A stretch of DNA of 20,244 nt. Source: a virus. The position numbers were made by a program, and so were the translations under genes. Positions 2,916 to 20,244 of this stretch are shown here, piece by piece (the first letter of the stretch is position 1; each line of letters begins with the position of its first letter). Location: positions 1-20,244 of the IMG/VR virus record IMGVR_UViG_3300012000_000156, one strand, 5' to 3'. The notes beneath the pieces are model-generated. The model ran no database searches, was not told the origin of the DNA, and saw only the letters and a program-made list of their open reading frames with translations.

Positions 2916-2931
2916 AAAGTAATCCACAAAA

Positions 2932-2969
2932 AGAGAACCCCTTGGAATTTCTTCCAGGGGGTTTTCTCT
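2932..2969. terminator. Bidirectional terminator between convergent genes
   Basis: AGAGAACCCC...TGG pairs with CCA...GGGGTTTTCTCT around the loop AATTTCTT. It sits between the end of the holin-like gene (+) and the end of the HTH gene (-), and has T-rich or A-rich flanks on both sides. Confidence 0.65.
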
Positions 2970-2984
2970 TGAAGTTGTTCGTAG

Positions 2985-3644
2985 TTACGAACTAGCACTT
3001 GTGCGGTTTGAGTGCTTGATTGGTTGATACGCCTTTGTCTTTCCGTTTTCAGTTGTTCGGTATCCATAACGAACGAGACGAAAAGCGAGCGCACTTGTTG
3101 TTACGCCAAGTAATTTTCCTAAGCGGTAAAGAGTTACGCCTTGCTCATTGTGCGCCTTGTTGAGCAGATAGGTGTATTCCTCTGCCTCTGCACGAAAGCG
3201 TGGAGAATTAGAACGCACCTTTTGTGCCAGCGGTTGAAGTTCTTTGAGTCGCTCTAAGATTTCAGGTGTTGGCATTGTGTAGGTGATTGGTGTCTTCTCT
3301 GCGTGACGAGGAACGCTAGGCACTAGGAAATAGGGCGGTAGCGGGTCAGTAGAGGGGCTTAGGAGTATTCGCCGTACTGTTTCAGGCGTCTTCCCCAACG
3401 CCTTAGCAATTGACTTGTTTGTCCAGCCTTCCTTACTTAGGGCAGTCACATAACTATCACGCACTTTGTTGTCTGCAATAGTTGAAAATAAATCCACTAC
3501 CTCTTGCGGTAGTGCTTGTCCTTGTTTGATTGGTTTACCCGCTCGCACATAATTTATCTTTTGTCGTGGTGTTCGTAATGACTCTCTTGCGGAGTGCGCC
3601 TTCGCAAGTTGTTCGGGGTGAGTCTTGAAGTTCACTCTTGTCAT
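2985..3644 (-). CDS. DNA-binding protein with two helix-turn-helix motifs (219 aa), putative phage regulator
   Basis: ATG at 3644 with GAAAGGA 7 bases upstream; stop at 2985. Two HTH-like segments are visible. Residues about 62-93 (YVTALSKEGWTNKSIAKALG then KTPETVRRIL) form a resolvase/sigma-like HTH. Residues about 160-192 (YLLNKAHNEQGVTLYRLGKL then LGVTTSALAFRL) form a second. Between them is a helical PEILERLKELQPLAQKVRS stretch. The protein is basic at both ends. It shares layout and scattered identities with the + strand gene at 7671-8171, so the two are probable paralogs. A perfect 17-bp palindrome lies 47 bp upstream of the start, which suggests autoregulation. It is the leftmost gene of the - strand block. 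Specific target genes are unknown. Confidence 0.75.
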   Translation of the reverse strand: MTRVNFKTHPEQLAKAHSARESLRTPRQKINYVRAGKPIKQGQALPQEVVDLFSTIADNKVRDSYVTALSKEGWTNKSIAKALGKTPETVRRILLSPSTDPLPPYFLVPSVPRHAEKTPITYTMPTPEILERLKELQPLAQKVRSNSPRFRAEAEEYTYLLNKAHNEQGVTLYRLGKLLGVTTSALAFRLVRYGYRTTENGKTKAYQPIKHSNRTSASS

Positions 3645-3760: not shown

Positions 3761-3790
3761 AAAAAAGAAACCCCGCCTTTCAGCGGGGCT
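3761..3790 (-). terminator. Rho-independent terminator of the WGR-like gene
   Basis: CCCCGC 3771-3776 pairs with GCGGGG 3783-3788 around a 6-base loop. On the - strand it is followed by TTTCTTTTTT. Confidence 0.85.
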
Positions 3791-3802
3791 TCCCTTTGCC
3801 GA

Positions 3803-4042
3803 TTAGGCTACGAGGATTAGTTCGTAACCCTTTGCCTTCTTTTCTTCCACTTTGTCAAAAGCATAAGCCTTAGCCAAGAACGGATAGAAGAAAACTTTTT
3901 CTTGCTTTGCCTGTGGTGCTACTTCTTCTGCCTTACCCCATTGTGTTAGCACCTTGTTGTCGTCAAGGATAACTTCGTAGATTTTCTTCATACCAGCATT
4001 GCCACGATTTCCGTCCGACTTCTTGACTAGAATCCACTTCAT
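3803..4042 (-). CDS. Small WGR-domain-like protein (79 aa)
   Basis: ATG at 4042, with AAAGGA about 9 bases upstream; stop at 3803. The sequence follows the WGR pattern: KIYEVILDDNKVLTQWGKA (residues 19-37), then a helix ending in VEEKKAKGYELI (about 66-77). WGR domains bind nucleic acid in PARP and other proteins, and short stand-alone versions occur in phages. The core WGR triplet here is WGK. It is the first of four self-contained promoter-leader-gene-terminator cassettes. The exact substrate is unknown; early expression is likely from its near-consensus promoter. Confidence 0.65.
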   Translation of the reverse strand: MKWILVKKSDGNRGNAGMKKIYEVILDDNKVLTQWGKAEEVAPQAKQEKVFFYPFLAKAYAFDKVEEKKAKGYELILVA

Positions 4043-4070
4043 TTTGGTTTTTCCTTTTGTTCTGTTTTCT

Positions 4071-4087
4071 AAGCACCCTGTGTGCTT
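4071..4087 (-). ncRNA. 5'-leader hairpin A (AAGCAC-loop-GTGCTT)
   Basis: A 6-bp perfect stem with loop ACAGG (read on the - strand), starting close to the predicted transcription start of the WGR-like gene. It is one of four related leader hairpins. Confidence 0.5.
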
Positions 4088-4095
4088 ATAGGAGA

Positions 4096-4152
4096 AAAGT
4101 ATCGTAGTATTCCAAGCGTGTCAAGTTATAAAAGGTGTTTTTTCTGTGATTT
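4096..4152 (-). promoter_or_regulatory. Strong sigma70-type promoter A with conserved upstream block
   Basis: On the - strand: TTGACA (4119-4124), 17-bp spacer, TACTTT (4096-4101). A 35-bp block (4118-4152) covering the -35 and sequence upstream of it recurs at 4516-4550 with one mismatch. The -10 is followed by TCTCCTATAAGCA. Confidence 0.8.
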
Positions 4153-4173
4153 AGACTACACTTTTTGGGCAAG

Positions 4174-4196
4174 AAAAAACCCCCCTTGCGGGGGGC
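4174..4196 (-). terminator. Terminator with GCAA tetraloop (gene at 4211-4435)
   Basis: Six C / six G stem (4180-4185, 4190-4195) around the tetraloop GCAA on the - strand, followed by TTTTTT. Confidence 0.9.
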
Positions 4197-4210
4197 TTTC
4201 CCTTTGCCGA

Positions 4211-4435
4211 TTAGTAGGCGATAACCTTTAGGTGTGAGTAGCACTTGTTCTCTAGGTTATACATAGAGAGTTTAGTACCGCACTCGCAGTATCGAGCCTT
4301 GCTGATTGCCTTGATTGGGTTTGTGATTAGGTTGAACCCTAGTGTTGGCTCTGCCCAGTCTTCGGTATCAGGTACGAGGTTGATAAGTGCGATTTCTTCA
4401 CGAATCTTCTTTACTTGATTGTCAATACGCTTCAT
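4211..4435 (-). CDS. Small unknown protein with CxC...CxxH motif (74 aa)
   Basis: ATG at 4435 with AAAGGA about 7 bases upstream; stop at 4211. The N-terminal 20 residues are a charged amphipathic helix (MKRIDNQVKKIREEIALINL). The C-terminal third carries C50-E-C52 and C65-Y-S-H68, which could form a small zinc site. No family is recognised. It is expressed from its own promoter and ends at its own terminator, so it is likely an independently transcribed accessory gene of the early region. The function is unknown; a small host-takeover protein is only a guess from position and size. Confidence 0.7.
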   Translation of the reverse strand: MKRIDNQVKKIREEIALINLVPDTEDWAEPTLGFNLITNPIKAISKARYCECGTKLSMYNLENKCYSHLKVIAY

Positions 4436-4464
4436 TGTGGTTTTTTCCTTTTGTCTTTTAGCCT

Positions 4465-4478
4465 AACCCCTGTTGGTT
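4465..4478 (-). ncRNA. 5'-leader hairpin B (AACC-loop-GGTT)
   Basis: A 4-bp stem with loop AACAGG (- strand), preceded by ATAGCA as in the other cassettes. It is the weakest of the four. Confidence 0.35.
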
Positions 4479-4492
4479 TTGCTATTGAGAGA

Positions 4493-4550
4493 ATAATAAA
4501 TGCTAGTCTTACGCTGTGTCAAGTTATAAAGGGTGTTTTTTCTGTGATTT
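4493..4550 (-). promoter_or_regulatory. Strong sigma70-type promoter B with conserved upstream block
   Basis: TTGACA (4517-4522) and TATTAT (4493-4498) on the - strand, 18-bp spacer. It carries the same upstream block as promoter A. The -10 is followed by TCTCTCAATAGCA. Confidence 0.75.
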
Positions 4551-4564
4551 GTATTACATTAGGA

Positions 4565-4585
4565 ATACCCCCCTTGCGGGGGGCT
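4565..4585 (-). terminator. Terminator hairpin with GCAA tetraloop (gene at 4600-4851)
   Basis: Six C / six G stem, 4568-4573 with 4578-4583, GCAA loop. The T-tract is poor (TATTCCTAAT), so it may be leaky. Confidence 0.65.
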
Positions 4586-4599
4586 TCCCTACTGTTTTG

Positions 4600-4851
4600 T
4601 TAGTCCCAGTCCCCACCGTCCCACTCGCCTGTGGATAAAGTTGCTAGTTGGAGTTGGTTGAAACTAGGAATTTCAAGATAGTAGATAGATTGAACGCTAC
4701 GGGTGCTTGCCTTTGAGCAACCTTCCGCAGTTGCGTGGAATACAACGGTTTTATTTCCGTTAATAGACTTATTAGAGATTGAGATAGTTTCATCGTTTTT
4801 CTTAATTTCTCTGCTGCAAGTTCCGCAAAATACTTCTACTTTCTTAGCCAT
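4600..4851 (-). CDS. Small CxxC protein, putative zinc-binding (83 aa)
   Basis: ATG at 4851 with GGGGGAAG about 7 bases upstream; stop at 4600. C9-G-T-C12 near the N terminus, with H39 and C45 further on, could form a CCHC zinc site. The segment between is beta-rich (ETISISNKSINGNKTVVFHA). The C terminus is acidic and Trp/Gly-rich (STGEWDGGDWD). No family recognised. It has its own promoter, leader hairpin and terminator, as do its neighbours. Confidence 0.7.
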   Translation of the reverse strand: MAKKVEVFCGTCSREIKKNDETISISNKSINGNKTVVFHATAEGCSKASTRSVQSIYYLEIPSFNQLQLATLSTGEWDGGDWD

Positions 4852-4868
4852 TTTCTTCCCCCTTCGCT

Positions 4869-4887
4869 ATACCGACCCTTTCGGTAT
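4869..4887 (-). ncRNA. 5'-leader hairpin C (ATACCG-loop-CGGTAT)
   Basis: A 6-bp perfect stem with loop AAAGGGT on the - strand, preceded by TATAAGCA just downstream of the -10. Confidence 0.5.
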
Positions 4888-4900
4888 TGCTTATAAGAGA

Positions 4901-4929
4901 ATACTAAGTGCTAGTTTACGCAAAAGCAA
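4901..4929 (-). promoter_or_regulatory. Sigma70-type promoter C
   Basis: TTGCTT (4924-4929), 17-bp spacer, TAGTAT (4901-4906) on the - strand, followed by TCTCTTATAAGCA. About 20 bp further upstream is GTGACCAACACCACA, repeated with one change before promoter D. Confidence 0.65.
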
Positions 4930-4966
4930 GTCCAAAACCCTACTTTTTTTGTGGTGTTGGTCACAT

Positions 4967-4990
4967 AGAAAAGCCCCCCTTGCGGGGGGC
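4967..4990 (-). terminator. Terminator with GCAA tetraloop (44-aa gene)
   Basis: GCCCCCC 4973-4979 pairs with GGGGGGC 4984-4990 around GCAA (- strand), followed by TTTTCTATG. Confidence 0.8.
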
Positions 4991-5021
4991 TAATCTAGGC
5001 AAGACAATGACGGGTCTTTGC

Positions 5022-5156
5022 TTACTCTACTTGAAAACTCTCAAAGATTTCCTGCACCGAATCGTTGAGGGTTTCTATCAGTTCAGCGACTGCCTCATCG
5101 CTAAGATTTTCAACCATTTCCAAACTAATTGCTGAACGCCAGATAATTGTTGGCAT
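5022..5156 (-). CDS. Very small acidic protein (44 aa)
   Basis: ATG at 5156 with a GGGAG ribosome-binding site 6 bases upstream; TAA at 5022-5024. The protein begins MPTIIWRSAISLEMVENLSD and continues as an acidic helix (EAVAELIETLNDSVQEIF). No cysteines or membrane segment. It is easy to miss by length, but it is flanked by a promoter with the shared cassette layout, a leader hairpin and a terminator, which argues strongly that it is real. No family recognised. Small acidic phage proteins often act as inhibitors of host enzymes, but nothing here shows that. Confidence 0.65.
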   Translation of the reverse strand: MPTIIWRSAISLEMVENLSDEAVAELIETLNDSVQEIFESFQVE

Positions 5157-5176
5157 TTTGTCTCCCTTTCTCGCTT

Positions 5177-5191
5177 ACCGCCCCTTGCGGT
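5177..5191 (-). ncRNA. 5'-leader hairpin D (ACCGC-loop-GCGGT)
   Basis: A 5-bp stem with loop AAGGG (- strand), preceded by ACAAGCAAA, positioned as in the other three cassettes. Confidence 0.5.
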
Positions 5192-5206
5192 TTTGCTTGT
5201 AAAGTA

Positions 5207-5234
5207 ACAATAACATTTTTATAACAATAATCAA
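5207..5234 (-). promoter_or_regulatory. Sigma70-type promoter D
   Basis: TTGATT (5229-5234), 16-bp spacer, TATTGT (5207-5212) on the - strand, followed by TACTTTACAAGCA, which matches the post -10 sequence of the other cassettes in spacing. TGTGACTAACACCACA lies upstream (about 5245-5260). Confidence 0.5.
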
Positions 5235-5262
5235 GACCTAAAAGTGTGGTGTTAGTCACAAC

Positions 5263-5285
5263 AAAAAGACCCCCTTGCGGGGGTC
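5263..5285 (-). terminator. Terminator with GCAA tetraloop (DUF3846-like gene)
   Basis: GACCCCC 5268-5274 pairs with GGGGGTC 5279-5285 around GCAA (- strand), followed by TTTTTGT. Confidence 0.9.
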
Positions 5286-5306
5286 AATTTGTCAGGGGTT
5301 TGAGGC

Positions 5307-9167: not shown

Positions 9168-10922
9168 GTGGGCGTATTTAGCCGTGGTGATGAACCAGTA
9201 GAGTCAACACCTTCTCCCGTCGCAAAGAAGTCAACACCTCGTCGTAAGCGCCAAACAAATCGTTCTCGTCAAGTAGTTATCAATACAACTCCACCTAAAG
9301 TTTCTGGACCAGCGTCCGTATTTTTATCTTCTAGTAATCAAGCGCAGTCAGTAGCGTACTCAACACCTCGCACTTTGACAGCAGCAGCAGTCCAAGTAAA
9401 AGTAAATGACAAGGGTGAATACGAACAATTCAAAACACGTCGCTCCGCTGCATCATCTGCGTGGCAAGCAGAAGCGTGGGAGTACTACGACGCAATTGGT
9501 GAAATCAAATATGCATTCAATCTTGTTGCATCTGTTGTTTCTCGTATTCGTATCTATGCAGCAATCAATGAAAATGCAGCAGAAGCACCAATTCCAGTTC
9601 GCAACTCTTCACATCTAGACCCACGACTTGCTGCCGCAGCAGAGCGTGCACTTGCACGACTTGATTCAGCATACGGTGGACAAGCAGGTCTCCTCAAAGA
9701 TGCTGCTCTCAATCTCTCTGTTGCTGGTGAATGTTATTTAGTACAGATGCCAGAGCGTCCAGGTTCAGGCCTACCTGAGTCTTGGGATATTCGTTCTGTT
9801 GATGAAGTAACTCTTGATGCTGCTGGTGGATTCAATGTTATTGGCCGCCGTGAGCAAACTGTTGGTAATGGAAAGAATAATCCGCAGAACCGTTTAGGTC
9901 GTGGTGCATTTGTTGGTCGTATTTGGCGTTCACACCCACGCTACTCAGATGAAGCAGATTCATCACTTCGTGGTTTGCTTGATATGTGTGCAGAACTTCT
10001 TCTGCTCAACCGTACATTCCGTGCCACTGCACGCTCTCGCCTCAATGCTGGCGCACTTTATCTTCCAGATGGTTTGTCAGTTGCTGCACAAGGCGACCCA
10101 GATATGCCATACGACTCAGATAATGAGTTGAATCCAAACTTTGTTGCTGAAGAAGCAGAAGATGAATTTGAAGAGCAACTTATTGATGCGATGACAACTC
10201 CTATTCGTGATGAGGAGTCAGCATCAGCAGTTGTTCCACTTATTATTCGTGGTCCAGCAGAACTTGGCGACAAGATTAAGCAATTCAAGTTCGAGCGTTC
10301 ATTCGACCCAGCGCTTGCTGAGCGTTCTGACCGCGTACTAGAGCGTATCTTGCAGGGACTTGATGTTCCAAAGGATGTTGTTACAGGACTTGCAAATGTA
10401 AAGTACTCAAACGCTCTACAGATTGATGAAGCACTCTATAAGGCACACATCGAGCCACTTATGTTGCTCATTTCAGATGCTTTAACAGTTGTTTATCTTC
10501 GCCCATATCTTATTGCTCAGGGATTTAGCCAAACAGATGTTGAAAAGATTGTTATTTGGTATGACCCATCAGCGGTTGCAACACGCAATGACCGTGCAGC
10601 AGATGCAGATGCTGGTTTAGACCGTAACGCAATCTCTCTTGACACTTGGCGACGTGCTCACGGCTTCTCAACAGCAGATGCACCAACACCGAACGAACTT
10701 GCTATTCGCTTACTGGCAGAAAAGGGAGTTATTACTCCTGAACTAACAGAGGCAATGCTTGGAGCGATTGCTCCAGAGATGATGGAAGCAGTGAAGAATG
10801 CTCAGCAAGCAAATTCTGTTGCTCCAATTCCTCCAGCACTAGAAGAAGTATTGAAACAAGCAACACAAACACCATCTGCTGAAGCGCCACAGGCTCCAGC
10901 AACACAAGAAGGAGCACAGTAA
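9168..10922 (+). CDS. Portal protein (584 aa)
   Basis: GTG 9168 with GAGGAG 6 bases upstream. Portal proteins form the dodecameric ring at the capsid vertex through which DNA is packaged and ejected. The N terminus (1-60) is basic and disordered. From about residue 95 the portal core appears: EYYDAIGEIKYAFNLVASVV, LNLSVAGECYLV, the GRIWRSHPRYSDEADSSLRG segment, LLLLNRTFRATARSRLNAGA (helical stem) and the later RILQGLDVPKDVVTGLANVK loop with YSNALQIDEALYKAHIEPLM. The C-terminal 60 residues are Ala/Pro/Gln-rich. An acidic stretch at about 320-345 (NPNFVAEEAEDEFEEQLIDA) is consistent with actinophage portals. Length fits the family. Confidence 0.93.
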   Translation: MGVFSRGDEPVESTPSPVAKKSTPRRKRQTNRSRQVVINTTPPKVSGPASVFLSSSNQAQSVAYSTPRTLTAAAVQVKVNDKGEYEQFKTRRSAASSAWQAEAWEYYDAIGEIKYAFNLVASVVSRIRIYAAINENAAEAPIPVRNSSHLDPRLAAAAERALARLDSAYGGQAGLLKDAALNLSVAGECYLVQMPERPGSGLPESWDIRSVDEVTLDAAGGFNVIGRREQTVGNGKNNPQNRLGRGAFVGRIWRSHPRYSDEADSSLRGLLDMCAELLLLNRTFRATARSRLNAGALYLPDGLSVAAQGDPDMPYDSDNELNPNFVAEEAEDEFEEQLIDAMTTPIRDEESASAVVPLIIRGPAELGDKIKQFKFERSFDPALAERSDRVLERILQGLDVPKDVVTGLANVKYSNALQIDEALYKAHIEPLMLLISDALTVVYLRPYLIAQGFSQTDVEKIVIWYDPSAVATRNDRAADADAGLDRNAISLDTWRRAHGFSTADAPTPNELAIRLLAEKGVITPELTEAMLGAIAPEMMEAVKNAQQANSVAPIPPALEEVLKQATQTPSAEAPQAPATQEGAQ

Positions 10923-11396
10923 ATGGCAGTAGAGAATCCGCAACTTGTTGAGGCACTCACAAAGGTATTGGGTAATGAAGTTGTTATGTACTTCAAGGCT
11001 CACGGGCATCACTGGAACGTTGTAGGAAACGATTTTTCACAGTTCCACGCATTCTTTGCCGAGATTTACGAAGATGTATACGGTTCTATTGACGATACAG
11101 CAGAAGATATTCGTAAGTTAGGTGCTCCAGCGCCTTATCGCCTTGTTGAGTTTGCTCGTGCATCAGATATTCAGGATGCACAGGTTGGGCAGAACGCTAT
11201 GGCGATGTGCAAAGACCTTTACGATGCAAATGAAATTATGTTGAACTCTCTCAAGATGACTTTTGATATTGCTAATCAGAGCAACGAGCAGGGAATTGCT
11301 AATTTCATTGCTGAGCGCATTGATATGCACCAGAAGTGGCGCTGGCAACTCAATGCATTCCTTACTTCAGAAGAAAAAGCGAATTACGAGTTCTAA
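10923..11396 (+). CDS. Dps-like ferritin-family protein (157 aa)
   Basis: ATG 10923 directly abuts the portal stop; AAGGAG lies at 10909-10914 inside the portal gene. The sequence is a clear Dps: KAHGHHWNVVG (residues 25-35), FSQFHAFFAEIYEDV (38-52) and DDTAEDIRKLGAP (57-69), then IDMHQKWRWQLNAFL near the C terminus. Dps proteins form 12-mers that bind or shield DNA and oxidise iron. By spacing, ferroxidase ligands correspond to H30, H42, D57 and E61, all present. The fifth position (Asp/Glu four residues after the second His) is Ala46, with Glu47 next to it. No Lys-rich DNA-binding tail is seen. Lying between portal and giant gene, it is probably expressed late and may be packaged or protect DNA. 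Confidence 0.93.
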   Translation: MAVENPQLVEALTKVLGNEVVMYFKAHGHHWNVVGNDFSQFHAFFAEIYEDVYGSIDDTAEDIRKLGAPAPYRLVEFARASDIQDAQVGQNAMAMCKDLYDANEIMLNSLKMTFDIANQSNEQGIANFIAERIDMHQKWRWQLNAFLTSEEKANYEF

Positions 11397-11398
11397 AA

Positions 11399-12097
11399 AT
11401 GGCACAAGACTGGGTTGTTTTCTTAGATAAGGCAGACGAAGCAGGTATTACTGCCGCTGCTGGTTCTAAGCCTGCCCCAAAAAAGGACCAGATAAAAGGT
11501 TCTAGTAAAAATGCTAAGGGTTCTGCTTCTGGAAGTAGAAAAGTTGTTTTTAGTAAGGCAACTGAAGAATCTTTGAAGAAGAAAGTCCAAGAACACAATA
11601 AAAAAGCATCAGCAGGACGCAAAGCAACTCTTGGAATGCTCAAGGCTGTTTATCGCCGTGGTGCTGGAGCATTTTCTACTTCTCACCGCCCAGGAATGAC
11701 TCGCAATCAGTGGGCTATGGGTCGTGTAAATGCTTTCCTTCGCCTACTTAGTTCTGGAAGACCAAAACACTCTAGTTACAAGTCAGACAATGACCTTCTA
11801 CCTTCAGCGCATCCAAAGAGCACAAAGGGTGTTACTGCTTCAGGAGAAGAATTTGATTATGAAAATGAATTATCAGTAGAAATTCTTGATAAAGAATCAT
11901 ACGAATATCCAGAAGACGCAATTGTTGCTATGGCAGAATACTCTGGCTTTGGTTATGAAGCAGAGACAGCAATTCGTGCATCTTGGCTTCGTGGTGTTCG
12001 CAATGGAGATGACCCATTCAAGCGAGCAGCATTATTAGCATCTCTTGGATATGAAAGTTTAGACGCAGACCTATTACCAGCGATTGAGGAAGAATGA
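11399..12097 (+). CDS. Portal-adjacent protein with conserved 'RRGAGAFSTSHRPGM' domain (232 aa)
   Basis: Start chosen at ATG 11399, three bases after the Dps stop, since upstream in-frame codons lie within the Dps gene. Residues 1-55 are basic and Ser/Lys/Ala-rich. Residues about 56-138 hold a block I recall as frequent in actinophage and environmental phage proteins: LKKKVQEHNKKASAGRKATL, GMLKAVYRRGAGAFSTSHRP and NQWAMGRVNAFLRLLSSGRP. Residues 131-148 (NDLLPSAHPKSTKGVTAS) match a segment near the N terminus of the giant protein that follows. The C terminus is acidic. It overlaps the giant gene by ATGA. It may be a capsid-internal or maturation protein; the function is unknown. Confidence 0.75.
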   Translation: MAQDWVVFLDKADEAGITAAAGSKPAPKKDQIKGSSKNAKGSASGSRKVVFSKATEESLKKKVQEHNKKASAGRKATLGMLKAVYRRGAGAFSTSHRPGMTRNQWAMGRVNAFLRLLSSGRPKHSSYKSDNDLLPSAHPKSTKGVTASGEEFDYENELSVEILDKESYEYPEDAIVAMAEYSGFGYEAETAIRASWLRGVRNGDDPFKRAALLASLGYESLDADLLPAIEEE

Positions 12098-15000
12098 GCA
12101 GAGTAATTCGCCGCTTTAGTTACGCACTCTCACCAGAGGGTAAGCGTGCTGCTGCTATCCAACAAGCACATAAGTTGCGTGAGGCTGCCATCTCCGTCAT
12201 TGATTCAGTCAATGCTGATGCATCTACTACTCGTAAGATTACAAAGCGCTCTGCGTTTCAAGTAATTCAGCGCTCACTGTCACAGACAAAAAATTTGCCA
12301 TTCTCTCTAAGAGAATATATGGCTATTAAGGAATTATCACAATACATCAGCCTTCTACAGAATAATAAAGTTACATCTCTTACTCTTTCACACACAGACC
12401 TTCTTCCAGTAGCGCACCCACGCTCTACAAAGCGTCACGCTATGACAGCATCTGCTCTCAAGGAAGCAAAGGCTCGTTGGTATGCAGATGATTTGAGAAT
12501 TAAAAACCCAGAGACTCGCTCCATTGTTGCTTCTGCTCTTCTTGCAGATGCTGGCTCTGTAGAGCGTACTTATTACACAAGTCTTTTATCTTCACTTCCA
12601 CAGGGAGAAATCCCTCGTGACACTTTGATGGCACTTACTGCTGATGGAAACTCTTCAGCAGAGCGTTCACTTCGTGCTCGCTTACAGCGCCGTGACCGCT
12701 TAGGACGCTTTGCATTCCAAGGTGGAGGAATGCGTGCCTTTATTCGTCGTGCAGATGGCGGAATCTTTTCTCTACTTGGAAAGCCAGTCGCTGACTCACC
12801 AACAAATGAAGACAATGTTCAGGTAGAACTTCCAGACGGACGTATTGTTGAATTCCCATCTTCACAGTCCGAGTATGTCAAAGCAATTATCAATCCAACT
12901 AAAGATGGATATAGCGCAACACCTGCAAAGGTTTCAAGTTCAGACCCAATCCTCAATGAAGCAGACCTAAAATTTGTTGAAGCACCTGCTGGCTGGGAAA
13001 AGAATAAAGATGGCGGATTTGATAAGGGTGGATTCCGAGTAAGTGTTGGTAATGGAAATAAATTCCTTTTTAGAATTGGTCCAAATGGAAATCTTCTTGG
13101 TTTAGTTAGAGGAGACGGTCCTTCTGGCGCACATAGCAGTTGGTCAGATGTTCTTGACACAATTGATAAAGAAGATGCTAAAGCAAACGGTCCTATTGGT
13201 GGAGGACGTCACGAAGGTGTTCCAGAGGGTTGGAGCAATGATGAATTTACATTCTTCACTCCTAAAAATGATGAAAATGGAAAGCGCCTTGATTATGTCA
13301 ATGGAAACTTCCAAGCAGACATTCAGCCAGATGGAAAAATCCGAGTACGCTCATTCAACAATGTAAATGATGTACAGACATTTGATAACTGGGACGCAGT
13401 AGAGGCTGCCTTACCTTCAATGCAGGAAGAGTATGCAAAGAAGACTCGTGAGCAAATCAAATCCTTTATGAAGGATTATGGATTTAGCCAAGAACAAATT
13501 GATGCTATTGACACTATGTCAGAAGAAGACATCAAGAATTTCTTTACAACAGAAAATAAGAATGCTTTCCCAACTAACTTCTGGAATGATTTTGAAGATT
13601 GGTCTACATCTGCTTATGTAGATTTGCCAAGTCAAGCACAAAAACAACGCTGGGCTTCTTTTGGTAAGTTGATGGGTAACACTCGTCGTGCTGGTGATTT
13701 CCCTGAGAAAGGTTCATCAGAGAAGAAGGCGACTATTCCTCAGCAGCAAGCACCGCAAGCACCGCAAGCACCGCAAGCACCTGAGAAAAAAGATGGAAAC
13801 AAGTTCCAGTATAAGTATCCAAATCAGGTATACAAGATTGCTCCAGGAGTTGACTACGACCCACAGGGACGTGAAGACCAAGAGAGCCCTGACTACACAG
13901 ATGACCCAACAGAACTTGCTCAGCAGTTTGATGAGCGTGACCTTGTTGCTGCTCTTGAAGAAGCCGTAATTCCAAAAGAAGAGGGTGATGAAGCAACTGG
14001 TTATGGTGTTTTAGGTTTCTCTCGTGGAGATGAATTTGTTCCAGCAGATGCGCTATTCCTTGCTATTGATGAAGCAGGTGGCGATGCTCCAATGGAACTT
14101 GCAAAGATTTATGACAAGAAATCTGGCGATACTGCTAACGAAGATGCACTCAATGCGTGGCGCAAGAAAGAATCTGTAGGAGAAGAAACACCTACAGTTG
14201 AAAAAGCATTTGAGCGTGCTACAGGCGAACCATCTTCTGATGAAAAGCCAGCAATGCAAGAACCTGCATTTGATGCAGCAGAGATGGATAAGGTTCCACT
14301 ACCTACTTTGCTTGAGGGTATGAGCCAAAGTGAAATTGATAAGTATATGGAGACAAAGGACCACACTCCATATCTACCTAAGAATGAAGATATTCCAATG
14401 CCAGAGGGGTATCAGGCTCTTAGCCCAGAACCTTACGCTGCTTGGAGAGATGTAACTCCAGAAAATCCTGATGCAAACCTTCCAGAAGGTTTCAGCGATA
14501 ATCCTGTTTATCTTGCACAATCATTCAACAAAGATGAATTAGTTGGTGAACTTCGCCGTGCTATTGAGCCAGGCAATGATGTTCCTGGTTCATCTGTTAT
14601 TGAACTTCCTACAGAAGATGGCGACAAGTTTGTAGCAACAATCCCAGGTGAAGCAGTTCGTGATGCGCTTCAACTACAAGGTGAAGACACAAACAAACTT
14701 ATCAAAGATATTGCTGATGAAGGCTTTGCTGGTCAGAAAGATGAAATTGCAGAACTTCCAGAAGAAGCACCAGTTGCTGAAGAAGCACCAAAGGCTGCAC
14801 CATCTGTACTTGAGTTGCTTCAAGAAGAAGGAGACCGTGCTGACGAACTCGAAGGCGAAGGCGATGGTATGCCTCGTGGAGATGCACAGGCTATCGCTGC
14901 GGCAGAGATGAAGCGTAAGTACGGCAAAGATGCATTTGAAGCGCTACAAGAACTTCCTCAAAATGAAGCGATGCGAGTTCTAGATGACTATGAAAATATT

Positions 15001-18000
15001 CTTATCTCAGGAAAGCCAATTACTCCTGGTACTTATGAAGTACGCAAAAAGTCAGTAATTGATGACAACTTTGATGTTGAGAATGTAGAACAGATTCCAG
15101 ATGGAATTGAAGATGCTCCACGCTCTCCAAACATTCCACCAGCAGATGCTGGAACTGCACCATACCGAATTACAGTAAAAGTCACTGACCTCAAGCCAGG
15201 AGATATTACTGTTGGTGACCACTTTGTTATTGAAAGTATTGGCGAGAGAGTTCCTGGAACTAACCGCATCAACATTGTTGGTTACTACCCAGGACATCAA
15301 ACACAGTACACGAAGCAGTGGAATGACTTCCGTGAGATTGAAGTAATTCGTAACGCAGAAGCACCTGCTAAGGGTGATTTGCTAGAACTCAGCAAGCCAA
15401 AGATGAAAGAGTTCGGACCTCTTACAAGAAAAGATGGTGTCTGGGCTCTAAAGAATCCAGCAGACCAAGAAGCATTTGATGCTGCTCAAGCAGATTACGA
15501 TGCACGTCTTGCACAAGCAGTTGCTCGTTTTGAAGACCCAACAAGCGTAACTAACAAACCACATCGTGTAGTTGTTCGTGCTGCTGACTTGAAGCCAGGC
15601 GATGTTACATACGACCCAGCAAAGGGTCACTTTGTTATTGAAGAAGTGTATGAAAAAGAAGGACTGAAGGATGGATTCCTTGCAATCAAGGGATACTACC
15701 CAGGACACGTTTCTCAAGAGAAGCAGTGGCGTTCAGGAACAAATATTGAAGTTGTTCGTAATGTTGAGCCACCTGCTAAGGGAGAACTTCCAGAATTACA
15801 TCAGCCAGCAGGTCAAGGTCCAAAGGGAAATTGGTTCCCAGATAAAGACCCAGCAAAGCGTGCTGAATTTGAAAAACAATTAGCAGAAGCCGCTGCACGT
15901 TGGCAGTTACCAGAAAATCTTCCAATTGTTGAGAACACAGAAGTGAAGCCAGAAGATGCAAAGGATGTTCCACGTCCTGTTGCTATGGCAAAGCCATCTC
16001 GTCCACGTCAGCCAGAGTTCCCAGCATTCCAAGGTGAGTTTGCTGCGATTGCTCGTGAAGCAAATGGTGACTGGAGCAAGTTCAGAGAACTTATCAAAGA
16101 TAGAGAAGTTATCTTCTTTGACTTTGAAACAACTGGTCTTTCACCAGAAGACGGCAATGAGCCTTGGCAAATTGGCGCTGTAAAGATGAAAGACGGCAAG
16201 ATTATTGACCGTATCAATATTCATATGAATCCAGGACGTTCCATCAGTGGAACATATGCTGGAGGAGTTGTTGATGGAAAGCCAAATGCTGTTGATAAAG
16301 ATGGCAATCCACTTACAGATGAATTCTTGGCGCAGCAGCCTTCACAAGCAGAGGCGCTCAAGCAATTCCTTGACTGGGCAGGACCAAACCCTCTTCTCGG
16401 TGCACACAATGCTGCATTTGATGATGAAGTTATGCGTCGTGTTGTTGACCGCAATGGTCTTGACTATAACCCAGCAGGAATTATTGACACACTTCCATTT
16501 GCTAAGGGAGTTTTCAAGGACCAAGAAGATAAGCCAAAGAACAACAAACTTGTTGGTCTTGCAGAGTTCTTCGGTGTAAAACTTGATAACGCACACTCAG
16601 CAGATGCAGATTCAGAAGCAACAGCAGAAGTCTTTGATGCTCTTCTCAATGCTGCTGTAGATAGAAATGCAGGGCCAGACCTACTAGATGTAGATGCTCG
16701 TGTTGCAGAGTACGACCAAGCACAGGCTGCATACGACGAAAACTTCAAGAACTACCAAGATAAGTTGGCAGAGTGGGCAGCAATCAAGGCCCAGCAAGAT
16801 GCTAATGAAGGTAAGCCTGTTGATATCAACAAGGTAGTTGCTGATGCAACTGCTGTTCCTGCTCCAAACCCAGATGGACGTCAAGAGCAGGACATTCCTA
16901 CTGTTGAAAACAACCCAGCAATCCTTGAGTTCACACCTAATACTGCCTACCCACAGGGCAAGATGAGAATGATGTCTCCTGAGTGGGTACTCAATGATGA
17001 CAACACTGTTCTACTTCCTAAAGAAGAAATCCGTATGCGTGATGTTCTTCCTGGTGACTTTATGCAGTCAAAGGATGGCGAAACAATTTGGCAGGTAGTT
17101 GCAGTTCGTGGTGGAGAAGAAAATGGTCTTCAGCCAGGACGCATCAAGATTTATCGCCGTAACTTAGAAAATGGCGACCTCAGTACTTACGAGAACTGGC
17201 ACGGAGTATTCCTCAACGGAGTTCGCCGTCCTAAGAATCCAGAAGACTTAGTTGTTCCAGAGAACAACACAGAAGAGTTTGTCGCTAATAAGTCAACTCC
17301 AATGTCTCCAAAGGATATGGAGTTCCACTTTGAAGCATTTGACGCTATTGGTGGTCAAGGACATATTGGAATTGTTAAGCAAAAAGATGGCACCTACAAA
17401 ATGGATGCTCATTTTGCTGACGAGAACGGTGAGATTAACTACCGTGTAAATGGAACATACCGCACAATGGAAGGTGCTCTTGCTGAAGGTAAGGCACTTA
17501 TCCAAAGCCACGCAAAGTCTATTGAGGATAAGCGTCGTGAAGACCAGAACGAACCTAAGAAGGTAGACGTTCCAGTTTCTCGTGGTGTTGTTCCAGATGA
17601 TGCTGATATTGCTCCAGAAGTTATTGATGTTGCTGACCTTCCAAGTGGAATGACAGGAAACATTGAAGTAACTCCTGTTGATGTTGATTCGGATAAGCCA
17701 GCATTCCAAGCAGATGCAAACCTTCTTGACCAAGACGGAGCGCTACTTGCTCGTCTCTTTGAGAAGTACTTTGGTAAGTCTGTTGCAGAGAAGGAAGCAA
17801 GAGACTTTATTGCTCGTGCTGCCGAAGCACACGCTGTAGAAGCACCCGCTGAGCCAACACCAAATATGCAAAAGAAGAAAGTTCTTGACCTTCGTGCAGG
17901 AGATGCAATAAATGTTCCTGGTAAGGGTCTAAAAAAGATTAAAAATGCTCTTCCACAGATTGGTGGAGACAGTACTCGTGTGGAATTTGAAGATGGGGAA

Positions 18001-20244
18001 AGTGCCATCTACATTAATTCTGGAGAAGTAGATATTCAAGTTTCTGATAAATCAGAGAAGAAGAGCCCAGCAAAGTCTAAGAAAGAAAAGACTCCTGACC
18101 CAGAACTCGTTGCTAAGAACGAGAAGATTGTAAAAATCAATGACTGGGTTGAAGAGAATGCTGGTCTTATTCCAGAAGTTCCTGTAAAAGATATTCGTGT
18201 TGGTGACTTTATTCGCCATAACGGAAATCACGTTTATGAAGAAGTAAAGGAAATTCTTCCTGGACGTCGCCCTGGACAAGTTAGATTTATTGTTCACGAT
18301 GCACTTCGTGGAGAAGACTACGAGCGTCGCTTTGATGCTGGTAATAAGGGACTTCGCTTTGTGCGCCGTCCTGGAATTGAAGATGTAGTTCCAAAGGATT
18401 ACAAGATTCCAGCACGTCAACCTAAGCAGACTCCTGGACGTCAACGCCGTCGTGGTTTTGGAAAAATTAATAAACCAGAAGACCAGCGCATCATTATTGA
18501 CCCAGCACGCAAACTCAATCCAGAGGCTCGTGCAGAAAACGGTCTTTACAAGGACCGTATGGGTGAGCCTGTAAAGATTGGCGATGAAGTTGTTCACGTT
18601 GGTCAGAAGTTCCGTGATAAGTACGATGGTGCAAAGGGCGTTGTTATTCAGCGTGTTGGTGCACAGAAGGCTGGCGGAATTAAGCGTGGAGATTTCCAGT
18701 ATCAAGATTATGTATTAGTTCGTCTTGAGAATGGCGATATAAAGATGTGGGTTGCTAACAATCTATTCCACATTGGGCCTAATGGAACTATCCCAGAACC
18801 AGTTGATAACTTGCCTCGTGGAAAGAAGCGCCCTGAGCCAAATGCACCTGCTGCTCCAAAAGTAGAGGCACCTACACCTACACCTGAACCAGAAGCACCA
18901 AAGGTTCCTGGTATGCCAGAGACTATTTCTAAAGAACCTGTACAAGATAAAAACGGCGGAAAATTTGAATTAAGTCTTATTAAGATTGGCGATGTTTATG
19001 AAGGCGCTCTTATCAACAAAGATAACAATCGCATTCAGATAGTTGTTAGAAGCACAGATATAAATGTTGCTAAAAAAGAACTAAAGGATGCTGGCGACTA
19101 CATCAAGCAAGCAGCAAATGGCGATGAAGCGATGGGTGATGGTGTTATTCCTGACTTAGATAAGCCAGCAGAAGTACCTACACCAGAGCCAACAAATGCT
19201 GAAGAAGGACTACCTACAGCAGAAGATGTGAAGAACCAGTTCCAACTTCTTGGCAGCGAATACGTTAGAGATAAAGGCGTTCAGGTTTTGATGAAAGTCA
19301 AAGATGTAAAGCCTGGCGATTTTGTTATGACTCGTCGTGGAAAGTTTGGTCAAGTTATTGAGGTACGCAATGTTGGTGACCGCGTTGCTATCAAAGTTGT
19401 TTATCGCGGTGGCGCTGAGTTTGAATACAAGCCATATCGTAAAGAAATGATGATTGATGGTGTCCATCGTATTCCAACTGCTGACAATCCAAATCCAAAA
19501 GAAGCAGTACCTGCTTACGCTCCAGAACCAACACCTACTCCAGAAGCAAATAAGCCTGCTGGAGCATTGACTCCAGATGCTGCTCTACGAGAGTTAGCAA
19601 AGGTAAAGAAGAAACTTCCTCTTATCAAAGATGCCAACTATATGGTTGGACACGGAGTTCGTGAGTTCAACAAAGCAGTAAAGGCTCTTAAAGATGGAGA
19701 TATCGAAAGATTTGAAGCCCGTGCTGATAGAGCAATTAGGTATATCGGAAATAACACCAGATATGCAGATGCTGTAAAGCGTCTTGAGGAAATCAAAGCA
19801 GGAATTATTGAAGACCCTAATATTCCTAAGCCAAAAGAAGTAGGCTATAACGGGCCTGCTCTTGAAGACTTAGACCCAACTAAAGTTGCACAAGACCGTG
19901 CTGCAAATAATGAAAACCCAGTTGAGTTTGACCAACATTGGAAGGATAAATTCTTATCTGACAATTTCTGGAGCGAACTAAGCAGACAAGGTTTTGATAT
20001 TGGCGCATATAAAGATGAGATTCGTAATTTTATTGCCAGCAACCAGGCTAAGTCATTAGCAGAACTTTCCCCTCAAGCAAGAATTGCTCTTCAAGGAATT
20101 GTTGCTTATCAAATGCTCAATATCAGAAAAGAGCCAAATGATGCTGCCAATGCTAAGAATCTTGCTTTAGTAGCAAACGCTCTTCACCTAGAAAGAAATG
20201 CTTATCAACCCCAAGCGTTGGAGATGGATGATGCAGGACAACTT
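12094..20244 (+). CDS. Giant multidomain phage protein with DnaQ-like exonuclease (>2717 aa, runs off the right edge)
   Basis: ATG 12094 overlaps the upstream TGA (ATGA), with GAGGAAG 3 bases upstream. I read the frame codon by codon to the window end with no stop. Domains: residues 1-125 helical, including TDLLPVAHPRSTKRHAMTAS (101-120); about 200-260 (GRFAFQGGGMRAFIRRADGG, then VELPDGRIVEFP), typical of large actinophage proteins encoded after the portal; a QAP repeat (about 550-563); Glu/Pro/Ala-rich linkers throughout; a DEDDh exonuclease at about 1335-1520 (D1343, E1345, D1443, H1501, D1506, motifs DFETTG, GAHNAAFDDE, HSADAD); and about eight 'GD' modules (near 1030, 1160, 1650, 1930, 2030, 2160, 2290 and 2400) resembling SH3/KOW-like barrels. 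From position and architecture it is likely a capsid-associated polyvalent protein ejected with the DNA. The C terminus is missing. Confidence 0.9.
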   Translation, partial: MSRVIRRFSYALSPEGKRAAAIQQAHKLREAAISVIDSVNADASTTRKITKRSAFQVIQRSLSQTKNLPFSLREYMAIKELSQYISLLQNNKVTSLTLSHTDLLPVAHPRSTKRHAMTASALKEAKARWYADDLRIKNPETRSIVASALLADAGSVERTYYTSLLSSLPQGEIPRDTLMALTADGNSSAERSLRARLQRRDRLGRFAFQGGGMRAFIRRADGGIFSLLGKPVADSPTNEDNVQVELPDGRIVEFPSSQSEYVKAIINPTKDGYSATPAKVSSSDPILNEADLKFVEAPAGWEKNKDGGFDKGGFRVSVGNGNKFLFRIGPNGNLLGLVRGDGPSGAHSSWSDVLDTIDKEDAKANGPIGGGRHEGVPEGWSNDEFTFFTPKNDENGKRLDYVNGNFQADIQPDGKIRVRSFNNVNDVQTFDNWDAVEAALPSMQEEYAKKTREQIKSFMKDYGFSQEQIDAIDTMSEEDIKNFFTTENKNAFPTNFWNDFEDWSTSAYVDLPSQAQKQRWASFGKLMGNTRRAGDFPEKGSSEKKATIPQQQAPQAPQAPQAPEKKDGNKFQYKYPNQVYKIAPGVDYDPQGREDQESPDYTDDPTELAQQFDERDLVAALEEAVIPKEEGDEATGYGVLGFSRGDEFVPADALFLAIDEAGGDAPMELAKIYDKKSGDTANEDALNAWRKKESVGEETPTVEKAFERATGEPSSDEKPAMQEPAFDAAEMDKVPLPTLLEGMSQSEIDKYMETKDHTPYLPKNEDIPMPEGYQALSPEPYAAWRDVTPENPDANLPEGFSDNPVYLAQSFNKDELVGELRRAIEPGNDVPGSSVIELPTEDGDKFVATIPGEAVRDALQLQGEDTNKLIKDIADEGFAGQKDEIAELPEEAPVAEEAPKAAPSVLELLQEEGDRADELEGEGDGMPRGDAQAIAAAEMKRKYGKDAFEALQELPQNEAMRVLDDYENILISGKPITPGTYEVRKKSVIDDNFDVENVEQIPDGIEDAPRSPNIPPADAGTAPYRITVKVTDLKPGDITVGDHFVIESIGERVPGTNRINIVGYYPGHQTQYTKQWNDFREIEVIRNAEAPAKGDLLELSKPKMKEFGPLTRKDGVWALKNPADQEAFDAAQADYDARLAQAVARFEDPTSVTNKPHRVVVRAADLKPGDVTYDPAKGHFVIEEVYEKEGLKDGFLAIKGYYPGHVSQEKQWRSGTNIEVVRNVEPPAKGELPELHQPAGQGPKGNWFPDKDPAKRAEFEKQLAEAAARWQLPENLPIVENTEVKPEDAKDVPRPVAMAKPSRPRQPEFPAFQGEFAAIAREANGDWSKFRELIKDREVIFFDFETTGLSPEDGNEPWQIGAVKMKDGKIIDRINIHMNPGRSISGTYAGGVVDGKPNAVDKDGNPLTDEFLAQQPSQAEALKQFLDWAGPNPLLGAHNAAFDDEVMRRVVDRNGLDYNPAGIIDTLPFAKGVFKDQEDKPKNNKLVGLAEFFGVKLDNAHSADADSEATAEVFDALLNAAVDRNAGPDLLDVDARVAEYDQAQAAYDENFKNYQDKLAEWAAIKAQQDANEGKPVDINKVVADATAVPAPNPDGRQEQDIPTVENNPAILEFTPNTAYPQGKMRMMSPEWVLNDDNTVLLPKEEIRMRDVLPGDFMQSKDGETIWQVVAVRGGEENGLQPGRIKIYRRNLENGDLSTYENWHGVFLNGVRRPKNPEDLVVPENNTEEFVANKSTPMSPKDMEFHFEAFDAIGGQGHIGIVKQKDGTYKMDAHFADENGEINYRVNGTYRTMEGALAEGKALIQSHAKSIEDKRREDQNEPKKVDVPVSRGVVPDDADIAPEVIDVADLPSGMTGNIEVTPVDVDSDKPAFQADANLLDQDGALLARLFEKYFGKSVAEKEARDFIARAAEAHAVEAPAEPTPNMQKKKVLDLRAGDAINVPGKGLKKIKNALPQIGGDSTRVEFEDGESAIYINSGEVDIQVSDKSEKKSPAKSKKEKTPDPELVAKNEKIVKINDWVEENAGLIPEVPVKDIRVGDFIRHNGNHVYEEVKEILPGRRPGQVRFIVHDALRGEDYERRFDAGNKGLRFVRRPGIEDVVPKDYKIPARQPKQTPGRQRRRGFGKINKPEDQRIIIDPARKLNPEARAENGLYKDRMGEPVKIGDEVVHVGQKFRDKYDGAKGVVIQRVGAQKAGGIKRGDFQYQDYVLVRLENGDIKMWVANNLFHIGPNGTIPEPVDNLPRGKKRPEPNAPAAPKVEAPTPTPEPEAPKVPGMPETISKEPVQDKNGGKFELSLIKIGDVYEGALINKDNNRIQIVVRSTDINVAKKELKDAGDYIKQAANGDEAMGDGVIPDLDKPAEVPTPEPTNAEEGLPTAEDVKNQFQLLGSEYVRDKGVQVLMKVKDVKPGDFVMTRRGKFGQVIEVRNVGDRVAIKVVYRGGAEFEYKPYRKEMMIDGVHRIPTADNPNPKEAVPAYAPEPTPTPEANKPAGALTPDAALRELAKVKKKLPLIKDANYMVGHGVREFNKAVKALKDGDIERFEARADRAIRYIGNNTRYADAVKRLEEIKAGIIEDPNIPKPKEVGYNGPALEDLDPTKVAQDRAANNENPVEFDQHWKDKFLSDNFWSELSRQGFDIGAYKDEIRNFIASNQAKSLAELSPQARIALQGIVAYQMLNIRKEPNDAANAKNLALVANALHLERNAYQPQALEMDDAGQL
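13747..13781 (+). repeat. 9-bp tandem repeat encoding Gln-Ala-Pro
   Basis: CAAGCACCG is repeated three times, followed by CAAGCACC. In frame it gives QAPQAPQAPQAP, an unstructured linker inside the giant protein. The identical codons suggest recent slippage expansion. Confidence 0.85.
15169..15780 (+). repeat. Two adjacent homologous protein modules inside the giant gene
   Basis: Residues about 1025-1094 and 1157-1229 share DLKPGD, a G/D-H-FVIE core, GYYPGH, KQW and IEV.RN.E.PAKG in the same order. The two are the clearest pair among about eight 'GD' modules and point to internal duplication. Confidence 0.8.

Follow-up and report, generated by a model that had tools for sequence, protein, structure and literature searches.

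The stretch of DNA analysed here (the window) is a 20,244-base viral contig from IMG/VR (record IMGVR_UViG_3300012000_000156). Its plus strand encodes a portal protein (9168-10922; phrog_776, 1.5e-105), a Dps/ferritin-like protein (10923-11396; Pfam, 1.1e-19; phrog_3636), a protein with a Pfam DUF5824 match (11336-12097) and a giant portal-adjacent protein of putative polyvalent type (12094-20244). The giant gene runs from an ATG at 12094 through the last base of the contig without a stop, giving 2717 codons that are open at the 3' end. Its start overlaps the stop of the DUF5824 gene as ATGA, an overlap type that is present in most relatives, and the ribosome-binding-like sequence GAGGAAG precedes it. 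A previous reading of the sequence alone (the sequence-only reading) had described this start as coupled to a gene of the portal operon; the ATGA overlap bears this out, with the correction that the partner is the DUF5824 gene and that the Dps-like gene lies between it and the portal gene. The product of the Dps/ferritin-like gene is possibly a DNA-binding or iron-storing virion protein; the gene is also found in three other contigs (L003, L015 and L016), and in L004 there is no room for it between the portal and DUF5824 genes.

The uninterrupted frame described by the sequence-only reading was confirmed along its full 2717 codons. Calculated with the frame's own base composition, the probability of such a stop-free frame arising by chance is ~10^-74, and no open frame longer than 217 aa lies opposite it within the giant gene. 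Over 12.8 kb, including the first 928 codons of the giant, the window is 99.9% identical to a contig (L015) that was assembled separately. Together with the complete homologues that we found in many contigs, these results exclude a chance frame or an assembly artefact. It is true that the contig is a metagenomic fragment that ends inside the giant gene, but given the second contig, the complete homologues, and the purifying selection and invariant active site described below, we give virtually no credence to the idea that the frame is artefactual or that its exonuclease is a dead relic.

Modules and exonuclease domain of the giant protein

The N-terminus of the giant contains two modules that are common to proteins of the head operon. 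The first is a DUF5824-like module (residues ~28-118; 12175-12447) with a paralogous counterpart in the adjoining upstream gene; a profile of giant N-termini matches the upstream DUF5824 genes, mostly with E values of 1e-4 to 1e-8. The second, recognised with the same type of profile, is an 'RDRxGRFAxxGG' module (residues ~183-267; 12640-12894). In relatives, the head-protease fusion protein encoded downstream contains this module too (E 1e-3 to 1e-6), and two giants from cultured phages, Pumpernickel gp82 and A3Wally gp85, carry it N-terminally. Their presence in both the giant and its head-operon neighbours suggests that these may be docking or addressing modules.

The remainder of the protein is built largely as the sequence-only reading had it, from repeated small domains and Pro/Ala/Glu-rich linkers. 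Self-BLAST recovered three pairs of repeats: an internally duplicated region (residues 601-700 and 800-899; 13894-14790), tandem small 'DLKPGD' domains (residues 1016-1102 and 1156-1238; 15139-15807) that are 46-49% identical (E ~1e-20) and look beta-barrel-like by eye only, and a small domain whose two copies lie far apart (residues 1588-1672, 16855-17109; residues 2361-2425, 19174-19368). In addition, a mobile module (residues 376-538; 13219-13707) is found at other places in the giants of L013 (746-907), L059 (996-1161) and L041 (1071-1236). We found no HExxH motif and no Pfam match to the MPTase domain in the window protein, and no Pfam or PHROG match to a MuF domain; identification of the giant as a MuF protein or capsid protease was rejected, as neither Pfam nor PHROG gives it support. 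A tape-measure identity was also rejected, as the tape measure of cultured relatives is encoded by separate genes that lie further downstream.

By Pfam, the window's own part of the giant contains one recognisable enzyme, a DEDDh 3'-5' exonuclease domain (residues 1335-1515; 16096-16638), which was detected with Pfam, PHROGs, PDB sequences, AlphaFold and Foldseek. This domain matched Pfam RNase_T (5.5e-21, 76.2 bits; cut-off 24), PHROG 192 (1.6e-35) and, among PDB sequences, the PolC exonuclease 2p1j (5e-10). A complete DnaQ-like active site had been proposed for this region, and its five residues are exactly as stated: D1343 and E1345 in a DFE motif (16120-16128), D1443 (16420-16422), and H1501 and D1506 (16594-16611). 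The DEDDh fold on which the proposal had been staked for residues 1335-1520 was recovered as well, with an AlphaFold model (pLDDT 89.9, pTM 0.88) that matched PolC, DnaQ epsilon, DinG and ExoI in Foldseek at probability 1.0. The domain has the fold and all five catalytic residues in common with PolC, DnaQ epsilon and DinG but differs from them in having no attached polymerase and in being embedded in a head-operon giant. Its scores fall far short of the NCBIfam equivalog cut-offs, which is expected of an isolated domain, and we rejected a polymerase or replication gene on the grounds that there is no polymerase domain and that the exonuclease does not approach the PolC/DnaQ cut-offs.

Every distinct homologue exonuclease that is complete enough to judge retains all five catalytic residues, and two truncated homologues are intact in the portion that they retain. 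An incomplete Pfam match in L074 had hinted at loss of the DxE motif, and thus at a dead exonuclease in distant relatives; this was rejected, as the aligned homologues keep DxE. The dN/dS ratio of the exonuclease is 0.06-0.15 in closely related pairs and ~0.21 in comparisons with the window, where dS is near saturation, values that indicate purifying selection. From these data, we consider it highly likely that the DEDDh domain of the window giant is active as an exonuclease.

DNA appears to be the better candidate for its substrate, a preference that we hold with moderate confidence. An alternative is that the protein is delivered to the host but acts through its DEDDh domain on RNA or nucleotide second messengers (host transcripts or defence signals), as the superfamily includes RNase T and the ERI exoribonucleases, both of which are also among the fold matches. 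The best sequence and fold matches, however, are to the DNA-acting PolC/DnaQ epsilon, DinG and ExoI, and in some relatives a UvrD helicase follows the exonuclease, so we regard an RNA or second-messenger target as rather unlikely.

Relatives and their exchangeable C-termini

Relatives of the giant were found by scanning IMG/VR with the exonuclease and the giant N-terminus, and the N-terminus has relatives encoded in more than 100 IMG/VR stretches. The complete homologous giants are 1712-3540 aa in length (that of L018 stops early, at 1712 codons) and occupy the slot between the portal and the head-maturation protease. In the relatives examined the gene order is constant: portal, an optional Dps gene, DUF5824 gene, giant, a gene of ~260 aa and a head-protease-like long protein.

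Within this slot, the giants differ in the enzymes that they carry. Exonuclease and kinase occur together in L004, L006, L007, L008, L011, L013, L014 and L063, and a kinase occurs without the exonuclease in L035, L036, L041, L042, L050, L059, L071 and L095. The exonuclease is combined with ArdC-N and MPTase-PolyVal domains in L029 and L074, where the positions were mapped, and the same end is found in L019, L093 and L081. Neither exonuclease nor kinase was found in L115 and phage DSL-LC01. A UvrD helicase match is present in 5 of 16 scanned members, located after the exonuclease where mapped, and GNAT domains in one of the 16. The matches to hallmark domains in same-slot homologues reach 5.9e-31 for ArdC-N and 1.7e-29 for MPTase-PolyVal. 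In the L029 giant these domains score 3e-15 and 1.4e-23, respectively; its ArdC-N/MPTase end is 71.5% identical to that of L019, and in the N-terminal and exonuclease blocks both giants share 51-64% identity with the window.

Several individual giants have further features. That of L111 (1206-12167) has GNAT acetyltransferase matches at residues ~2008 and ~2750 and a DUF3626 match. Residues 1135-1170 of the L050 giant (10001-17080) weakly resemble sigma-70 region 4, so that this giant might possibly represent a delivered transcription factor. The giants of L115 (3633-12734) and DSL-LC01 (L002:17926-27795) have a C-terminal domain in common, at 35% identity. This domain looks like an ADP-ribosyltransferase by eye, an identity that we rejected because Pfam gave no support for it in the C-terminal piece of DSL-LC01.

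Comparison of close relatives points to exchange of C-terminal cassettes. Through most of the N-terminal and exonuclease blocks, the giants of L011 and L013 agree at 95-98% identity, but their last 600 residues, where the kinase types differ, are only 15-32% identical. Conversely, the L013 and L035 giants are alike at the C-terminal end (76-91% identity in the last 700 residues) and mostly 36-76% identical N-terminally, and L035 lacks the exonuclease block. This pattern reads as a recombination signature of exchangeable effectors, and the sequence identities argue that the exchange of kinase type between L011 and L013 is very recent. Across the relatives, the C-terminal alternatives comprise two kinase types and the ArdC-N plus MPTase-PolyVal end.

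The last part of the window giant can be placed among these alternatives. Its final ~130-240 residues match the giants of L063, L035, L036, L008, L013, L006, L014 and the L007 contig, all eight of which terminate in a HipA/PI3K-like kinase of the first type. The segment at residues 2497-2717 (19582-20244) is 41% identical to L063 residues 2722-2944, and the kinase profile match in L063 spans 2924-3213. Since the giants aligned with the end of the window finish in the kinase, and the L063 alignment meets the kinase match, the window appears to break off at the edge of the kinase or just within it, and we infer that the window phage encodes a C-terminal HipA/PI3K-like kinase. The sequence-only reading had suggested that more domains may lie beyond the window, and the C-terminal kinase in every matching relative agrees with this. 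From the lengths of the complete homologues and the alignment to L063 (3213 aa), the window giant probably ends ~270 residues beyond the window, for a full length of ~2990 aa; we looked for a contig extending beyond the window end and found none.

In the relatives, the C-terminus is best described as a kinase-like domain of the HipA/PI3K kind, and we do not assign it to a Pfam family. A Lys, a Glu, an NxDRHxxN motif and a DxG motif are invariant in 14 of 14 aligned sequences that include the two divergent versions, which corresponds to the catalytic Lys, the Glu, the catalytic-loop Asp and Asn, and the metal-binding Asp. These invariant residues are common to the HipA/CtkA and PI3K/PI4K kinases. 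The Pfam matches fall under the gathering cut-offs (PI3_PI4_kinase, best 24.9 bits, cut-off 27.1; HipA_C, 21.2 bits, cut-off 30.5; CotH, also sub-threshold), and among PDB sequences PI4K type 2 and CtkA give weak profile matches. A structural model (pLDDT 77) matched CtkA and HipA in Foldseek with TM-scores of 0.38-0.46. The domain is nonetheless very divergent from CtkA and HipA (12-13% identity) and is seen only in the relatives, not in the window. Its matches in a viral structure library are uncharacterised phage proteins, among them a 1479-aa protein of Gordonia phage GodonK, equal in length to the portal-adjacent gp67 of that phage, and a protein annotated as a portal protein.

Giants are also present in the same slot in cultured actinophages, located after a homologous portal as in the window: Pumpernickel gp82 (2235 aa; Microbacterium), Atuin gp71 (3113 aa; Arthrobacter), GodonK gp67 (1479 aa; Gordonia) and A3Wally gp85 (1913 aa). 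All four are annotated as hypothetical protein or DNA helicase, and no DEDDh exonuclease was detected in any of them. Pumpernickel gp82 has a kinase match at its C-terminus. Atuin gp71 (L119:2693-12034), annotated 'DNA helicase', combines UvrD with an ADP-ribosyltransferase exoenzyme domain (2.1e-6), and is probably another polyvalent protein as judged from these domains. The 3289-aa giant of DSL-LC01 (WJZ48510.1; proposed 'Nanparkviridae') is 38.8% identical to the window giant at the N-terminus (residues 27-267), and this phage has the same gene order and a portal 70% identical to that of the window. Its giant differs in having no exonuclease or kinase match and a different C-terminal domain, the one in common with L115.

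The window portal is 58-70% identical to those of large Microbacterium phages and DSL-LC01, and 41-46% identical to those of Arthrobacter phages and Gordonia phage GMA2. Given these portal relatives and the WhiB genes that 7 of 8 related contigs carry, an actinobacterial host is very probable. DSL-LC01 likewise has a predicted actinobacterial host (PMC10611076), and this phage and the base composition suggest a freshwater setting. A search of 84,980 prokaryote genomes with the giant N-terminus gave no match.

Polyvalent assignment and proposed delivery with the DNA

To our knowledge, polyvalent proteins have been defined almost wholly by computation, with few members caught in the virion or given a tested function. 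In the main-text passages of Iyer et al. 2017 (PMC5512222), they are described as multidomain proteins with 2-15 disparate domains, drawn from a list of 131, and those of phages as lying typically beside the virion genes of portal-terminase phages; packaging and injection are proposed there, as an inference for most members. The same passages predict self-processing by the MPTase domain and describe DdrB of phage P1 as a processed head protein (PMC5512222).

The window giant resembles these proteins as a giant multidomain late-gene product near the portal or terminase. Its neighbourhood is one of late virion genes, with the portal upstream and, in relatives, a head protease downstream. Many complete homologues carry at least two domains of disparate activity in one chain; the window part, cut at the kinase edge, shows one recognisable enzyme. 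An MPTase processing domain of its own, common but not universal in polyvalent proteins, is absent from the window part. On the basis of the slot and of homology to proteins with ArdC-N and MPTase-PolyVal, we are very confident that the window giant belongs to the phage polyvalent proteins. The 'polyvalent' label given by the sequence-only reading is thus strengthened by the hallmark, UvrD and GNAT domains of same-slot homologues and by the swapping of C-terminal enzymes. Two features set this group apart: the DEDDh exonuclease is a recurrent core here, and none is discussed in the main-text passages of the 2017 paper (PMC5512222), and the kinase is HipA/PI3K-like rather than of the truncated serine/threonine/tyrosine type given in those passages. 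Polyvalent proteins as a kind are already known, and we claim no priority for an exonuclease in a polyvalent protein; as far as our searches show, the recurrent DEDDh core, the combination of this core with HipA/PI3K-like kinases and the connection between metagenomic and cultured actinophages are new.

The account that we favour, and consider fairly likely, is that the giant is a phage polyvalent effector that is packaged near the portal and enters with the DNA, its exonuclease and kinase acting in the host. The N-terminal modules held in common with head-operon neighbours would most likely place the giant in the prohead near the portal. Travelling inside the capsid, it would pass into the host along with the DNA, either whole or after cleavage by the head protease. 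There, the DEDDh domain would trim 3' ends, most likely of DNA, and the predicted C-terminal kinase would phosphorylate host proteins so that takeover is favoured or defence blunted. Injected virion enzymes have precedents in T4 Alt and the ~3500-aa virion RNA polymerase of N4. Passage of a ~3000-aa protein through the tail needs unfolding or processing, which counts against delivery, as does the lack of an MPTase, since this domain is predicted to self-process other polyvalent proteins. On balance, delivery of the giant into the host with the DNA seems probable to us. A literature search for virion proteomics of these phages surfaced none.

A more specific form of this proposal is that the giant is a virion-delivered cassette protein of freshwater actinophages, similar to polymorphic toxins, in which a DEDDh core that processes DNA ends at entry is combined with exchangeable C-terminal effectors: the two HipA/PI3K-like kinase types, the ArdC-N/metallopeptidase end and perhaps an ART-like domain. 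We put this forward tentatively, as a possibility.

Two further explanations do not involve ejection of the protein. One is that the giant serves mainly as a structural or scaffolding component inside the head, with the exonuclease acting in assembly, for instance by trimming DNA ends during packaging. The position of the gene within the head operon and the modules in common with the head-protease fusion protein would agree with this, as would the range of sizes (1712-3540 aa), which could be tolerated in a filler or scaffold protein. However, C-termini such as ArdC-N/MPTase, kinase and GNAT have no evident role in assembly, and cassette swapping fits effectors. As several complete relatives without the exonuclease retain the slot, this domain appears not to be essential to assembly, and we judge a scaffold role improbable.

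The other is that the giant is a late-expressed intracellular enzyme, active for example in host DNA degradation or superinfection exclusion, and not a virion component; a PolC/DnaQ-type exonuclease with UvrD partners in relatives would suit general DNA degradation. Against this stand the invariant position between portal and head protease, the translational coupling, the N-terminal modules common to head-operon proteins, and the occurrence of kinase-fold matches among phage proteins that are annotated as portal or adjoin it, so this explanation seems to us quite improbable. Returning to delivery as the preferred explanation, the uniform slot, the swappable C-terminal enzymes in close relatives and the existence of culturable relatives (with Microbacterium, Arthrobacter and Gordonia hosts) make both the delivery claim and the role of each enzyme directly testable. 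The comparison also provides a functional lead for the giant 'hypothetical' or 'helicase' genes beside the portal in large actinophages.

Elsewhere in the window, an SLT-type lysozyme gene is followed by a peptidoglycan-binding gene, with overlapping ends (1409-2511). The region at 3768-5290 contains five terminator-like hairpins (CCCCCCTTGCGGGGGG type), ~300-400 bases apart, which appear to separate short minus-strand genes, and a 43-base direct repeat (91%) lies at 4118 and 4516 within this hairpin region.
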